Source of the DNA: an uncultured Bacteroidales bacterium
Lineage (GTDB): Bacteria > Bacteroidota > Bacteroidia > Bacteroidales > UBA932
DNA: 64,000 nucleotides
Direction: 5' to 3'
Assembly (NCBI GenBank): GCA_947588835.1
Contig: CANPZS010000006.1
Location: 1-64,000 of the forward strand
Shown here: positions 15,724-32,895 of the stretch, piece after piece
How the letters are laid out: each line of letters starts with the position of its first letter
How positions within the stretch are numbered: the stretch's first letter is position 1
Translations under genes and position numbers: made by a program
The notes under the pieces: generated by a model
The model's database searches: none
What the model saw: only the letters and a program-made list of their open reading frames with translations
What the model was told of the DNA's origin: nothing

Positions 15724-15782
15724 ATACATTTCGGCTTATTTATGAAATGTTGCCCTTATTTTTATTATTGGAAAATATTTGC

Positions 15783-15790
15783 TATCTTTG
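15783..15790 (+). promoter_or_regulatory. -7 box (TATCTTTG) of rimP-nusA-infB
   Basis: Exact TAnnTTTG, so transcription should begin near 15795. The box is embedded in an inverted repeat: CTATC-T-TTGCATC (15782-15794) pairs with GATGCAAGATAG (15798-15809), one T bulged, with a CGT loop. The right arm is shared with the terminator that follows. Confidence 0.7.
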
Positions 15791-15802
15791 CATCCGTGAT
15801 GC

Positions 15803-15837
15803 AAGATAGAGGACGGAGATGTCCCCTATCTTTTTTT
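15803..15837 (+). terminator. Intrinsic terminator in the leader of rimP-nusA-infB (candidate attenuator)
   Basis: AAGATAG-A-GGAC (15803-15814), loop GGAGAT, then GTCC-C-CTATCTT (15821-15832) form an 11-bp stem with one A/C mismatch, running straight into seven T (15831-15837). It lies between the -7 box and the rimP ATG at 15849. The upstream gene lpxD points away, so no other transcript on this strand needs a terminator here. Confidence 0.75.
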
Positions 15838-15848
15838 AAAATTACGCA

Positions 15849-16316
15849 ATGGACATCAACGATCTGCGCGGGACGGTGGAGCAATGGGGCGAAGCGAGGG
15901 GCATTTTCATAGTCGACATCGCGGTAAGCCGTGACGACGACGTCACCGTCACGATAGAAAAAAACGTCGGCTCGGTGGAGTTGGACGACTGCGCCGCCCT
16001 CAGCGATTTCATCACCGGGCGCTTTTCGCGCGATGAGGAAGATTATTCCCTCACCGTGACTTCAGCCGGACTCGACCGGCCTTTCAAGGTGCAGGGGCAA
16101 TATCTCAAGGCTGTCGGCAGCAAGGTGGACATCAGGCTGAAAGGCGGCAGGAGGTTCGTGGCCGAGCTCGCCGGCGCCGATGAAGACGGAATACAGGTGC
16201 GCTACACCGCGCTCGAGGCCGTGGAGGGGAAAAAGAAGAAAATGCCCGTATCGCACGACGAAAGGATAGAGATGGCGCAGATAAATTCCGTTGCGCCCTG
16301 GATTGAATTTGAATAA
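15849..16316 (+). CDS. rimP: Ribosome maturation factor RimP
   Basis: Small-subunit assembly factor of the RimP/YlxS family. The 155-aa protein has the N-terminal alpha/beta domain with the family stretch DCAALSDFITG, followed by YSLTVTSAGLDRPFK and an SH3-like C-terminal domain (GRRFVAELAGADEDGI). It is the first gene of the conserved rimP-nusA-infB operon; nusA begins 15 bp downstream. The start is ATG after an A/T-rich, SD-less leader that carries an intrinsic terminator. Confidence 0.93.
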   Translation: MDINDLRGTVEQWGEARGIFIVDIAVSRDDDVTVTIEKNVGSVELDDCAALSDFITGRFSRDEEDYSLTVTSAGLDRPFKVQGQYLKAVGSKVDIRLKGGRRFVAELAGADEDGIQVRYTALEAVEGKKKKMPVSHDERIEMAQINSVAPWIEFE

Positions 16317-16331
16317 TTGATTATAAAAACG

Positions 16332-17594
16332 ATGGAAAAATCAAACATTATCACTCTCATCGACGCTTTCAAGGATTTCAAGGAAGAAAAGAACATTGAC
16401 AGGCCCGTGATGATGGGCGTTCTCAAGGACGTGTTCCTGACCCAGATCGCCAAGACTTACGGCACTTCCGACAATTTCGACGTCATCATCAACGTCGACA
16501 AGGGAAACTGCGAAATCTACCAGAATTTCGATATCGTCGAGGAGGTAACGAATCCCGTGGCCGAAATGACGCTCGAACAGGTCAAGGCCGAGACCGGGGA
16601 CGACGACTACGAGATAGGCGACACCTACACGAAGAAGCTGAGCCTCGAATCCTTCGGACGCAGGGGGATACTCAACATAAGGCAGAACCTGCAGGGCCGT
16701 ATAATGGACATAGAAAAGGCCAACGTATTCAAGAATTACTCCGAGAGGGTGGGAGAACTGTTCACCGGCGAGATCTACCAGACATGGAAGAACGAAGTCC
16801 TCGTGCTGGACGAAGACAGCAACGAGCTGCGCATGCCGCGTTCCGAGCAGATTCCGGGAGAGCATTTCAAGAAGAACGACACCATCCGCGCCATCATCAA
16901 GAGCGTCGAAATGAAGAACAACACCACTCCCTACATAGTTCTTTCGAGGACGACGGACACTTTCCTCGAGAAACTGTTCGAACAGGAGGTGCCGGAGATT
17001 TTCGACGGGCTCATAACCATCAAGAAAGTGGTCCGCATCCCGGGCGAAAGGGCCAAGGTGGCGGTCGAATCATACGATGAGCGCATAGATCCCATCGGCG
17101 CATGCATAGGCGTGAAAGGCTCCCGCATCATGGGCATTGTGCGCGAGCTGCGCAACGAAAACATCGACGTACTCCAATGGACCAACAACACCCAGCTGCT
17201 TATCCAAAGGGCGCTCAGTCCCGCCAAGATTTCTTCCATCGACCTCGGCGAAGGCCCCGATGACAAGATCAAGGTATACATGCTCTCGGAAGAAGTGAAG
17301 AAAGGCATAGGCAAGGGCGGATGCAACATCAAGCTCGCCGGCATGCTCGTAGGACGCGAGATAGAGGTGTGGAGGGAGCTTCCCAAGACGGAGACCGACG
17401 AAGAGGACGTACTGCTCAGCGAATTTTCCAACGAGATAGACCAATGGATCATAGACAAGCTCGAATCCATCGGCTGCGACACCGCCAAGAGCGTGCTCGC
17501 CCTGGCTCCGGCCGACATAGCCAAGAGGGCCGATCTCGAGGACGAGACCGTGGAAGACGTGCTGAGGATATTGAGATCCGAATTCGAAGAATAA
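16332..17594 (+). CDS. nusA: Transcription termination/antitermination factor NusA
   Basis: RNA polymerase-binding elongation factor that modulates pausing, intrinsic termination and antitermination. The N-terminal RNAP-binding domain (residues about 1-125), S1 domain (about 130-200, containing GEIYQTWKNEVLVLDED) and two KH domains (GACIGVKGSRI and GKGGCNIKLAG) are present, with a short C-terminal helical tail and no duplicated acidic repeats. ATG 16332 (MEKSNIITLIDAF) is chosen over an in-frame TTG at 16317 next to the rimP stop. The leader terminator of this operon is a natural target for NusA itself. Confidence 0.95.
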   Translation: MEKSNIITLIDAFKDFKEEKNIDRPVMMGVLKDVFLTQIAKTYGTSDNFDVIINVDKGNCEIYQNFDIVEEVTNPVAEMTLEQVKAETGDDDYEIGDTYTKKLSLESFGRRGILNIRQNLQGRIMDIEKANVFKNYSERVGELFTGEIYQTWKNEVLVLDEDSNELRMPRSEQIPGEHFKKNDTIRAIIKSVEMKNNTTPYIVLSRTTDTFLEKLFEQEVPEIFDGLITIKKVVRIPGERAKVAVESYDERIDPIGACIGVKGSRIMGIVRELRNENIDVLQWTNNTQLLIQRALSPAKISSIDLGEGPDDKIKVYMLSEEVKKGIGKGGCNIKLAGMLVGREIEVWRELPKTETDEEDVLLSEFSNEIDQWIIDKLESIGCDTAKSVLALAPADIAKRADLEDETVEDVLRILRSEFEE

Positions 17595-17619: not shown

Positions 17620-20421
17620 ATGGCAGAAATCAGATTAAACAAACTTATCAAGCAATACAACATAGGCCTCGGGAATTTGGTTGAATTCCTGCGCAAGCAG
17701 GGCGCCGAAGTGGAGGAAAATCCCAACGCCAAGATCTCGGACGAATTTCTTCCGGCCATCCAGAAGCAGTTCGGCAAGGATCTCGAGCTCAAGGTGCAGT
17801 CCGAGAAAGTCGACATCAAACTGACGGAGATATTGGGAAAGACCAACAAAAAACTCCAGGAGCAGGAAGAAGAAGACGAGGACGAAGAGCCGGTAAAGGA
17901 GACCATCATAAAGAACAACAATTTCACCCCGGCGCCGAAACCCGAACCGGAGCCCAGGCCTGAACCTGAGCCCGAACCGGAACCGGAACCCGAACCTGCG
18001 GAAGAACCGGAACCGGCCGTCGCCGAGGCGCAGCGTCCGGAGAAGACTCCCCTTCCCGCAGAGAAAAAGGACGCCGCTCCGGAGCATGTTCAGGAGCATA
18101 AGCCCGTAGCCGCGCCGGCACAGCCTGCGGCGGCGGAACCGGAACCGAAGCCCGAAGAAAAACCTGAAGTGAAGCCTGCAGAAGGACCTGAAAAGCCTGC
18201 CGCCGCATCCGTCGCAACCCCTGCGGATACGACGCAGCGTGAAAAGGCCCCCGGCCTGACCATAGTCGGCAAGATTGACGTAAGCAAATTCGAGCCCAAG
18301 AAAGGCAAGAAGCGCGAACGCATCCAGAAAGGCTCCCAGAAAGTGGACGTCAACAAGATAAAGGCAGAAGACGGACGCAACCGTTCCGGAGAAAAGAAGA
18401 ATTCGGGCGGAGGACAACAGAAACACAACCAGCCTCAGGGCAGCGGCAAAGGCAGAAACCGTGGAAACAACCGTTTCAAGCCGGCCCTTACCGAAGAGGA
18501 AGAGGAGGCGATGCGTAAAGAAATCCAGAAGCAGGTCAAGGAGACCTACGCAAGGATGAACGAGAGCAAAAACAACTTCGGCGCAAAATACCGCAAGGAG
18601 AAAAGGGAGCAGGCGGCCCTGAAGACGCAGGAAGAGATGCAGCTCGCCGCGGCCGAGAACAAAGTCCTGAAAGTGACGGAATTCGTCACCGTGAACGACC
18701 TCGCTACACTGATGAACAACACTCCGGTGAACAAAGTGATCGGAGCCTGCATGAGCCTGGGCCTGATGGTGTCGATCAACCAGCGCCTCGACGCCGAAAC
18801 GCTTGTCCTCGTGGCCGAGGAATTCGGCTACAAGGTAGAATTCGTCACGGCTGAACTCACCGAAGAGGTGACGATGGACACGGAAACGGTCGACAAAGAA
18901 GAGGATCTCGTCGAAAGGCCGCCCATCATCACCGTCATGGGCCACGTCGATCACGGAAAGACCTCGCTGCTGGACCATATACGCAGCACCAACGTCATAG
19001 CCGGCGAAGCGGGAGGCATCACCCAGCACATAGGCGCATACAACGTGGTGCTTCCGAGCGGACGGAGGATAACCTTCCTCGACACCCCCGGACACGAAGC
19101 CTTCACGGCCATGCGCGCCCGCGGAGCCCAGCTCACCGACCTCGCCATCATAATAGTCGCGGCCGACGACGCAGTCATGCCGCAGACCGTCGAGGCCATC
19201 AACCACGCACAGGCTGCCAACGTCCCCATGGTGTTTGCGATCAACAAGATCGACAAGCCGGGCGCGCAGCCCGAAAAGATACGCCAGCAGCTCTCGCAGA
19301 TGAACATACTTGTAGAGGACTGGGGCGGCAAATACCAGTGCCAGGAAATCTCCGCCAAGAAGGGCCTGAACGTGGACAAGCTGCTCGAGAAGGTCTTGCT
19401 GGAGACCGACCTTCTGGAGCTCAGGGCCAACCCCAAGAAGCCGGGCGTAGGCGCCGTGATAGAGTCGTCCCTCGACAAAGGCCGCGGATACCTTGCCACG
19501 GTGCTTGTACAGGACGGTACCCTGCATGTGGGCGACGTCGTACTGAGCGGCTGTTTCTACGGCAGGGTCAAGGCCATGTACAATGAACGCGGACAAAAGG
19601 TGGACGAAGCCGGCCCTTCCACTCCCGTGTCGATGCTCGGTCTGAACGGAGCGCCGAGCGCCGGAGAGAAATTCAACGTGATGTCGGACGAAAAGGAGGC
19701 CAAATCCATCGCCAACAGGCGTGAACAGCTCATACGCATCCAGGGCATAAAGACGCAGAAGCATCTGACCCTCGAAGAGATCGGGCGCAGGATCGCCATC
19801 GGCAACTTCAAGGAGCTTAACATTATAGTGAAAGGCGACGTAGACGGTTCCGTCGAGGCGCTGTCCGATTCGCTCATCAAGCTGTCCACCGAACAGGTGC
19901 GCGTGAACGTCATGCACAAGGCCGTAGGCGCCATATCCGAATCCGACGTGCTGCTTGCCGAGGCTTCGGATGCGGTCATAGTGGGATTCCAGGTGCGTCC
20001 GTCGGTCGAAGCGCGCAGGACGGCCGAGAAAGAGGGCATTGAAATCCGTCTCTATTCGGTCATCTACGATGCCATAAACGATGTCAAGGAAGGTATCGAA
20101 GGCATGCTCGAGCCGGAGAAGAAGGAGGAAATCACGGCCACGGCGGAAGTCAAGCAGACCTTCAGGATATCCAAGGTGGGCACCATCGCCGGCTGTCTGG
20201 TACGCGAAGGCAAACTGGTCAACAAAGTTTCCGTGCGACTCATCCGCGACGGCATCGTGGTTTACACCGGAGCCCTCAATTCATTGCAGAGAGGAAAGGA
20301 CGACGCCAAGGAAGTCATCGCCGGCATGGAATGCGGGGCGGGCCTTGAAAACTTCAACGACATAAAGGCGGGAGACGTCATTGAAGCCTTCCGCATCGTT
20401 GAGATAAAACGTTCGCTCTAG
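17620..20421 (+). CDS. infB: Translation initiation factor IF-2
   Basis: GTPase that places initiator tRNA on the ribosome. The protein is 933 aa. It has an N-terminal IF2N-like segment, then a long low-complexity arm rich in Pro-Glu repeats (about 105-205) and Lys/Gly/Asn (about 230-290), and a second IF2N domain. The G domain follows, with [11 protein letters not shown] (about 440), DTPGHEAF and NKID, then domains II-IV ([11 protein letters not shown] near the end). The N-terminal arm is typical of Bacteroidota IF-2. It closes the rimP-nusA-infB operon, 25 bp after nusA, and ends 3 bp from a convergent gene. Confidence 0.97.
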
Positions 20422-30300: not shown

Positions 30301-32895
30301 ATGAAAAGCTTTTTGTCGAAGATACTGCTTCCGGCGGCCATTTCCGGACTTGCGGTCATGCAGCTTGCGATGCGCCCTGCATCCCTGAGGGAGGCTCCGC
30401 GCCACAGGCTCTGCATTCCGCAGGTACAGGTGGACACGACGGTCGTCCTGCCGGGGGAGGAACCGGCCGTCGAAGAAAACTATGACGACTCCCTGTACCT
30501 TTTCGGTTTTTCCGATGAAGGCGAAAAGCCCGCCGTACAGGCGAAGGACACCATAAAGGCGCCCGATTCGCTGCTCGTCACCGATCCTTTCCTGTATGAA
30601 TGGTACGTGGCCGTCAAAGATTCCCTCACCCACAGGATGACGGTGGACTCGCTACGCGCGTCCGGAGACAGCCTCATCTGGCCGAGAATAGATTCGCTGT
30701 ACGCGACGGACTCCACCGAAAGGGTGAAGAAAGCATTCGAAGAATGGTACGCCGCTCTCGACAAAATGGAGCGCAAGAGATACGATGCGGAACAGAAAGC
30801 GGCAAAAAAAGTGCGTGCCGCCGACAGCATTTCCCGCATAAAAGACAGCATCAGGCAACACCGGGACAGCATAAGGGATTCCAAGCTGAGAATTCTCGAG
30901 ACATTCGCCATCCCGGATTCGATGCATCTGAAGCGCCTGATCTCATGGCGGCACGACAGGTATTTCAACAAAGTCATCCTTCAGGAGACGGACACGGCCT
31001 TCAATTACCATTTCAACGATCTGCCGTTTCTGCGCAACGACGTAGGCGCCACTTTCCTCGGCGTCGCCGGCTCGGCCGTGCAGACTTACGATTTCTTCAA
31101 GCGTACGGAAGAAGACGGGGCATCCTTCTACACCCCTTACGAAGCATACAGCTACACCGCGCACACGCTTCCGCTTTACAACACCAAAACGCCGTACACC
31201 GAACTTGAATATTACGGCACTTTGTTCGCCCCGCAGAACAAACAGTCCAACAACCTCCGCATATTCACGACGCAGAACCTGACCCCGGAATTCAATTTCG
31301 CCCTTGAATACAGGCGGTTCGGCGGCGAAGGAATCCTGCAGAACGAAAGAACGGCCAACAAGACTTTCGTCGCCTCGGCCAACAGGCTCGGAAAGAAGCA
31401 TCTGCTTCATGCGGGATACATATACAACAAGGTAATACAGAACGAAAACGGCGGCCTTCAGGATCCTTTCTGGATACGGGACACCACGGTGGACGCAAGG
31501 GAGATATCCGTCTTCCTCACCGATGCCAAGAACACATACAAAAAGAACACCCTGTTTCTTGACCAGACATACCGGATTCCGCTGAATTTCATAAAGAAAG
31601 CCGTCAAGGAGGACGAAGCGGACAGCACCGGGACCGACGTCACCACCATATTTATAGGCCATGCTTCGGAATATTCCGTCTACACAAAACATTATACCGA
31701 CGGAGTGAGGGCCGGCGACGGGGCCGGAAGCGAATTCTACAACGGGAATTTCTTCATAAGTCCGGACGGCAGCAACGATTCGCTCAGAATGACGAGACTG
31801 GAAAACAGAGTGTTCGCAAGGCTCCAGCCATGGTCGGACGAGGCTGTCATTTCAAAACTTGACGTAGGCATAGGCAACCGCATACGCAGGTTCTACGACT
31901 TCAGTCCCGACACCTATCTGCACGGGACAAGCCACAGGACATGGATTTCCAATTACATTTACGCCGGCACCGAGGGCCGGATAAAGAAATACGTCAACTG
32001 GGATGCGGTCGGCAGCTACACGTTCACCGGACATGAGGCCAACGACATGATGCTGAAGGCACATGCGGGGCTGGACGTCTACCCGTTCAGGCGCGACCGC
32101 AACAGTCCGGCGTCGCTGAACGTGTATTTCGAGACCTCCCTCAAGGAACCGGATTTCTACCAGCAGCGCCTATATTCCAATCATTACAGATGGAACAACG
32201 ATTTCGGAAAGATCTCGCTGTCCAAACTGCAGGCTTCGCTCGACATACCCCGCTGGAAACTGCATGCCGACGTAGGATATTCGCTTTCAGCCAATGCAAT
32301 ATGGTACGATACGCTGGGCGTCGTCAGGCAGAATGCCGGCACCGTCAGCATACTTAAGCTTGGACTGGAAAAGAATTTCACCATAGGGAACATTCTGCAT
32401 CTGGACAACAGGGCCCTGATCCAGTTCTCGTCCGACGAAAACGTAGTGCCGCTGCCTAAAGCGGCGTTCAATCTGAGATATTATCTGCAGTTCAACATCG
32501 TAAGCGAGGACATAATGAAGATGCAGATTGGTGTCAACGCCCTGTACAACACCAAATGGTATGCCCCCGCCTACAATCCTGTGGCCGGCAGCTTCATGGC
32601 ACAGAACAAGATGCAGTACGGAGCCTGTCCCTACTTCGACGTGTTCGCCAACATCCAGTGGAAGCGGGCGTGCATTTTCGTCAAATTGGAAAATGCGGGA
32701 CAGGGATGGCCGAACGCAGGAAAAGACTATTTCAGCGCCCACAATTATATACACACCCAAAGGGCGGTGAAAATAGGCATATACTGGCCGTTCTACACTC
32801 AGTCCCGGGTGAACGCCACCCTCAGCGGAATGGCTTCCGGCGGCCGGAGCGGCGGAGGCGGAGGAAGTTCAAGGGCAATGAACTCCACGCCATGA
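30301..32895 (+). CDS. Putative porin (Porin_10 family) with long N-terminal extension
   Basis: 864 aa. An N-terminal hydrophobic signal (LSKILLPAAISGLAVMQLA) is followed by an acidic region and a highly charged, probably helical stretch (about 125-200: KAFEEWYAALDKMERKRYD, SISRIKDSIRQHRDSIRD). From about 215 onward is the barrel characteristic of Bacteroidota putative porins (FNKVILQETDTAFNYHFND, FLGVAGSAVQTYDFF, then many aromatic strands and GIYWPFY near the end). A short Gly/Ser tail follows the barrel. Pore specificity is unknown. Its TGA overlaps the ATG of the next gene. Confidence 0.85.
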   Translation: MKSFLSKILLPAAISGLAVMQLAMRPASLREAPRHRLCIPQVQVDTTVVLPGEEPAVEENYDDSLYLFGFSDEGEKPAVQAKDTIKAPDSLLVTDPFLYEWYVAVKDSLTHRMTVDSLRASGDSLIWPRIDSLYATDSTERVKKAFEEWYAALDKMERKRYDAEQKAAKKVRAADSISRIKDSIRQHRDSIRDSKLRILETFAIPDSMHLKRLISWRHDRYFNKVILQETDTAFNYHFNDLPFLRNDVGATFLGVAGSAVQTYDFFKRTEEDGASFYTPYEAYSYTAHTLPLYNTKTPYTELEYYGTLFAPQNKQSNNLRIFTTQNLTPEFNFALEYRRFGGEGILQNERTANKTFVASANRLGKKHLLHAGYIYNKVIQNENGGLQDPFWIRDTTVDAREISVFLTDAKNTYKKNTLFLDQTYRIPLNFIKKAVKEDEADSTGTDVTTIFIGHASEYSVYTKHYTDGVRAGDGAGSEFYNGNFFISPDGSNDSLRMTRLENRVFARLQPWSDEAVISKLDVGIGNRIRRFYDFSPDTYLHGTSHRTWISNYIYAGTEGRIKKYVNWDAVGSYTFTGHEANDMMLKAHAGLDVYPFRRDRNSPASLNVYFETSLKEPDFYQQRLYSNHYRWNNDFGKISLSKLQASLDIPRWKLHADVGYSLSANAIWYDTLGVVRQNAGTVSILKLGLEKNFTIGNILHLDNRALIQFSSDENVVPLPKAAFNLRYYLQFNIVSEDIMKMQIGVNALYNTKWYAPAYNPVAGSFMAQNKMQYGACPYFDVFANIQWKRACIFVKLENAGQGWPNAGKDYFSAHNYIHTQRAVKIGIYWPFYTQSRVNATLSGMASGGRSGGGGGSSRAMNSTP

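Follow-up and report, generated by a model that had tools for sequence, protein, structure and literature searches.

What is an intrinsic terminator doing at the head of an operon that makes a termination factor? The question arises in the window (the whole stretch of 64,000 nucleotides analysed here, from an uncultured Bacteroidales bacterium), where lpxD lies on the minus strand and is followed, after an intergenic region, by rimP (15849..16316), nusA (16332..17594) and infB, the gene of IF2 (17620..20421). All three are on the plus strand and are identified by their domains (RimP_N and DUF150_C over cut-off; NusA_N and KH_5; and IF-2, GTP_EFTU and IF2_N, respectively). An original prediction held that the leader of this operon is a candidate NusA-responsive attenuator in which a terminator could compete with a second, upstream hairpin. 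Here, we propose that the leader, as a minimal attenuator, probably (at roughly 70%) lets NusA regulate its own operon, (rimP-)nusA-infB, a reading that draws on analogy with better known nusA leaders. The terminator attenuator is supported, a response to NusA is plausible given the conservation, the covariation, the association with nusA and the precedents in Bacillus subtilis and Escherichia coli, and the competing hairpin has to be given up.

A promoter box and a terminator in the leader

The promoter is represented by a -7 box, TATCTTTG (15783..15790, plus strand), which follows the Bacteroidota consensus TAnnTTTG. In Bacteroides thetaiotaomicron this motif is centred at -7 (PMC7366714), which would place the transcription start in the window near 15793-15797 on the plus strand; the main text of that transcript map makes no mention of rimP or infB. 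A sigma-70 promoter scan gave no site at the leader, as expected for Bacteroidota.

Between the box and the rimP start codon lies a terminator stem-loop (15803..15832, plus strand; arms 15803-15814 and 15821-15832, 92% complementary according to the repeat finder), which passes into a T-run (15831..15837) that would form the U-tract and ends 11 nt before the ATG. As had been claimed, the element at 15803-15837 combines a stem of 11 Watson-Crick pairs and one mismatch (A15810 opposite C15825) with seven T, and it is recovered both by the repeat finder and by folding; a G-U pair is possible beside the loop. The layout is also as described, with the hairpin between the box and rimP and the neighbouring gene diverging. 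Since lpxD runs in the opposite direction, no other gene's transcript could be ended by the terminator.

Might such a hairpin be there by chance? The stem-loop folds at about -13.9 kcal/mol (z -3.96), and 0 of 200 shuffles were equally stable. A simple terminator scan over 10 kb lists the hairpin but shows no excess (12 found vs 11.5 expected from shuffles), and chance was therefore judged by folding, gene-start controls and conservation. The gene-start control considered starts with an upstream gap and hairpins within 45 nt of a -7 box; in a 464-kb sample of the genome, 3 of 177 such starts, the leader included, combine the box with a closely placed terminator-like hairpin.

Terminator-like hairpins also stand in the leaders of other gene starts of the same genome (L179:3257, L168:10677 and position 30301 of the window), which are candidate attenuators in their own right. 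At convergent gene ends, a strong intrinsic terminator lies within 100 nt in only 12 of 120 cases (464-kb sample of G000, crude gene calls), so genes of the window's genome may seldom end by intrinsic termination.

Conservation across Bacteroidota

We collected rimP loci from the same genus, order and phylum and applied one fixed rule for a hairpin with a T-rich tail, which 1-6% of dinucleotide shuffles pass. The stem, whose retention in close relatives was essential to the original prediction, is kept with its T-run in 34 of 34 genus leaders (33 by score, and L065 with the hairpin just outside the scanned stretch; shuffles 6/170). All 21 leaders from the rest of the order carry hairpin and T-run (shuffles 1/105), as do, by score for the hairpin, 98 of 104 from the rest of the phylum (shuffles 29/520), where several of the failing leaders have a hairpin farther upstream. 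On this comparative evidence we hold with high confidence that the leader terminator is conserved.

Searches with covariance models point the same way. Model R1 matches the window at 15790-15842, and a model of the genus leaders has the rimP/nusA leader as its top match in nearly all genus genomes. In 79 of 79 further nusA loci (named records) the model matches once each, always in the rimP/nusA leader, a test that is partly independent in that 7 of the 79 loci lie on contigs equal in length to contigs used for the model. The idea of a regulon sharing this element was rejected, the model giving no second strong match in the window's genome (next best E 0.06). Among the library models of Rfam, searched at the gathering cut-off and at E up to 10, there was no leader family of the rimP-nusA-infB operon.

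The sequence of the stem differs by lineage: GGGGAC/GTCCCC in Bacteroidales, GGGC/GCCC in family f56, AAGTGGG/CCCACTT and GTGAGCG/..CTCAC in other Bacteroidota, and, in one group (e.g. L057, L095), CGCCC/GGGCG, where the two arms have changed places. The stem of the window is GGAC/GTCCCC, its 5' arm reading GAGGAC. Most relatives have a TA..TTTG box in the corresponding position, and where TAnnTTTG was found near the stem the gap has a median of 13 nt; with the box so shortly before the stem, there is little room for a sensor domain.

Could the hairpin instead work at the mRNA level, through 5' stability or translation control, with the T-run incidental? It sits at the 5' end of the mRNA and, in the window, near the start codon (the 11 nt from T-run to ATG), as such a role would suggest. 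However, a T-rich tract directly follows the stem in nearly all leaders (the scan rule itself asked for T), the distance from hairpin to start codon differs widely among them, and in f56 the stems shrink to as little as 4-6 bp with long T-runs, which is terminator-like. We regard a post-transcriptional role as quite improbable and continue to read the hairpin as a terminator.

The check proposed with the original prediction, an alignment of the leader across relatives in search of covarying stem pairs, had a positive outcome: the terminator stem covaries. A sequence-only alignment of 33 genus leaders has changes on both sides in 7 of 12 stem pairs, and the percentage paired, the double-change cells and the covariation score are higher than in any of the 500 shuffles or at any shifted register; an alignment fitted to a covariance model gives the same outcome. 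Alignment A5 is larger and less divergent; there, only 2 pairs have changes on both sides, no more than in shuffles, although the covariation score is still above all of them, such that the support for covariation comes mainly from alignments A1/A3.

The upstream inverted repeat

The terminator had been predicted to compete with a mutually exclusive upstream hairpin, or else to lie beside an operator repeat over the -7 box. The repeat itself is real (15782..15809, plus strand): a repeat finder returns inverted repeats at 15782-15788/15803-15809 and 15788-15794/15798-15804, the positions foreseen. Folded alone it reaches -12.9 kcal/mol (z -5.5), and a weaker form is present in 9 of 34 genus leaders. 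Its 5' arm, however, is part of the promoter box (15783-15790), and because of this the two hairpins are not alternatives in one RNA; with a start near 15793-15797 the arm would lie outside the transcript. The original caveat, that a start near 15795 leaves the terminator alone in the RNA, was therefore right, and the position of the B. thetaiotaomicron motif agrees with it.

Put through the same covariation test, the alternative helix gave nothing above shuffles, which equalled it for cells paired in 433 of 500 cases. The -7 box is unable to pair fully with the arm in 14 of the 24 genus leaders that have an intact GATAG arm. Among relatives about ten variants of the box occur beside a constant GATAG arm, so the pairing in the window would result from two elements each conserved for its own reasons. 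The inner palindrome, TGCATC/GATGCA, occurs in 0 of 76 relatives and is the only exact copy in the genome, where one-mismatch copies number 3 vs 6 for a reversed control pattern. We judge the repeat incidental and reject both the competing hairpin and the operator palindrome as highly improbable. No antiterminator is visible either, the alternative helix being without covariation and little leader lying 5' of the stem.

Which gene does the leader serve?

The gene nusA adjoins rimP in 59 of 60 loci, the remaining one being cut by a contig end, and with adjacency nearly universal, gene order alone is silent on the gene served. In family f56 (loci L181, L182, L184 and L191-L217), RimP is absent in 39 of 40 genomes, and the lone match may be a contaminant. 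Here nusA comes first, and all 29 of its leaders that extend far enough upstream keep the box and a terminator-like hairpin with a T-run (shuffles 6/116). Nearly all of these hairpins come directly after the -7 box and have a GGGC...GCCC core; in L216 and L217 a different hairpin, farther upstream, scores best, with the GGGC hairpin still visible. Closer to the window's genus, in L293, L304, L305 and L313, the box-hairpin unit separates the rimP stop codon from the start of nusA, no terminator precedes rimP, and rimP either takes second place in a different operon or carries a box of its own. The unit sequences of these loci are near-identical and their arrangement is probably one event. Rearrangement and gene loss are together good evidence that the leader unit serves nusA-infB, not rimP.

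This also bears on whether RimP or IF2, not NusA, regulates via the hairpin. Both are products of the operon and both bind RNA or the ribosome, but the hairpin persists without RimP and stays with nusA when rimP is outside. For IF2 gene order is uninformative, nusA and infB staying together, and IF2 has no known role in termination. Regulation by either protein seems to us very unlikely.

The rimP gene shows peculiarities of its own. In L293, L304 and L305 it looks as though another operon had captured it, for it overlaps the end of a gene whose product has a 2-oxoacid dehydrogenase acyltransferase domain. The RimP match is confined to the N-terminal part in roughly half of the genus (L061-L075, L283:1208-1486); the 92-aa protein of L283 has RimP_N and no C-terminal SH3 domain.

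Proposed mechanism

In light of its tie to nusA, how might the leader work? The unit would comprise a promoter, about ten leader nucleotides and an intrinsic terminator that ends about 40 nt past the start. RNA polymerase would either stop at the U-run and release an RNA of roughly 40 nt, or read through into the operon. NusA, itself a product of that operon, stimulates hairpin formation and termination; when abundant, it would stop a larger share of transcription and so limit its own synthesis. With no antiterminator involved, read-through would be set by the level of the termination factor itself. Both termination in vivo in Bacteroidota and the part of NusA as effector are what we infer here, and a feedback role for NusA is most likely, judging from the homology of the arrangement.

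NusA-dependent terminators have a suboptimal hairpin or U-tract. The stem mismatch is kept in 31 of 72 distinct relatives, but the window hairpin is itself not especially weak (about -13.8 kcal/mol, seven T), so a dependence on factors is not readable from the window sequence. The same signature would be expected from fluctuating IF2, from another Nus factor or from fixed, unregulated attenuation. The last of these is a constitutive attenuator that cuts operon output by a fixed fraction and responds neither to NusA nor to any signal. All sequence evidence for the terminator fits it equally, and no sensor element is visible; a weaker promoter would achieve the same output, however, and both the retention of the unit with nusA through loss and displacement of rimP and the autoregulation of NusA in B. 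subtilis favour feedback. We thus consider constitutive attenuation unlikely. Returning to feedback by NusA, the promoter-joined terminator, which would be a feedback loop of the smallest possible size, has been kept on nusA across Bacteroidota through rewriting of its stem, even inversion between orders, and through loss or relocation of rimP. On balance, we lean towards a NusA homeostat of nusA-infB, not of rimP, that would be read by structure and be independent of sequence.

Comparison with known nusA leaders

In B. subtilis, NusA is autoregulated via NusA-stimulated termination in its own 5' leader, and the effect of NusA is greatest where hairpins are weak and U-tracts interrupted (PMC12288461, a 2025 review, citing Mondal et al. 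2016 for the autoregulation). The window leader resembles this one in having an intrinsic terminator before the nusA operon, with feedback by NusA-stimulated termination proposed. Autoregulation in B. subtilis was shown experimentally, whereas ours is deduced; the B. subtilis leader is given as about 180 nt (PMC2965389), whereas the window unit would extend to only about 40 nt past the start. In E. coli, rimP is preceded by terminators t1 and t2, and reduced termination by NusA goes with more operon transcript (PMC6511841). The metY-rimP-nusA-infB operon thus shares with the window its terminators 5' of rimP, but its leader has several promoters, a tRNA gene and RNase III sites, in contrast to the single near box of the window.

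The window leader also resembles the rimP-leader, described as the most widespread predicted attenuator, with a GGGc...gCCC terminator, no antiterminator and NusA proposed as regulator (Naville and Gautheret 2010, PMC2965389); Bacteroidetes are not mentioned in the main text of that paper. Shared with it are the terminator before rimP-nusA-infB, the GGG/CCC core and T-run, and the lack of a visible antiterminator, with the window arm GAGGAC a partial match to GGG. Unlike the rimP-leader, Bacteroidota stems vary, with the arms swapped in one group, and the unit may precede nusA without rimP. Attenuators of the two-hairpin terminator/antiterminator type need a transcribed, conserved competing hairpin, which the window leader does not have. 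The leader has every feature of the rimP-leader class that sequence can test and would work as these known leaders do, with its NusA dependence predicted by analogy.

Leader attenuators of nusA operons are already known; what we add is a probable Bacteroidota example and the positional tie of the unit to nusA. A third deep lineage, one with another type of promoter, would thereby join B. subtilis, where feedback attenuation by NusA has been shown, and E. coli, where it is indicated; in Bacteroidota, factor-dependent termination is little studied. Gene loss and rearrangement point to a control unit that serves nusA-infB, not rimP. With the whole circuit in about 60 bp, the leader would be an easy test bed for the self-regulation of a termination factor without an antiterminator.

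In some relatives, a tRNA-Gln(TTG) gene lies before nusA or rimP (L183:1321-1392, L029:1318-1390 and the sequences of L218-L236), reminiscent of metY before rimP in E. coli. Its own terminator comes next, and several of these relatives have a second G-rich hairpin before nusA.
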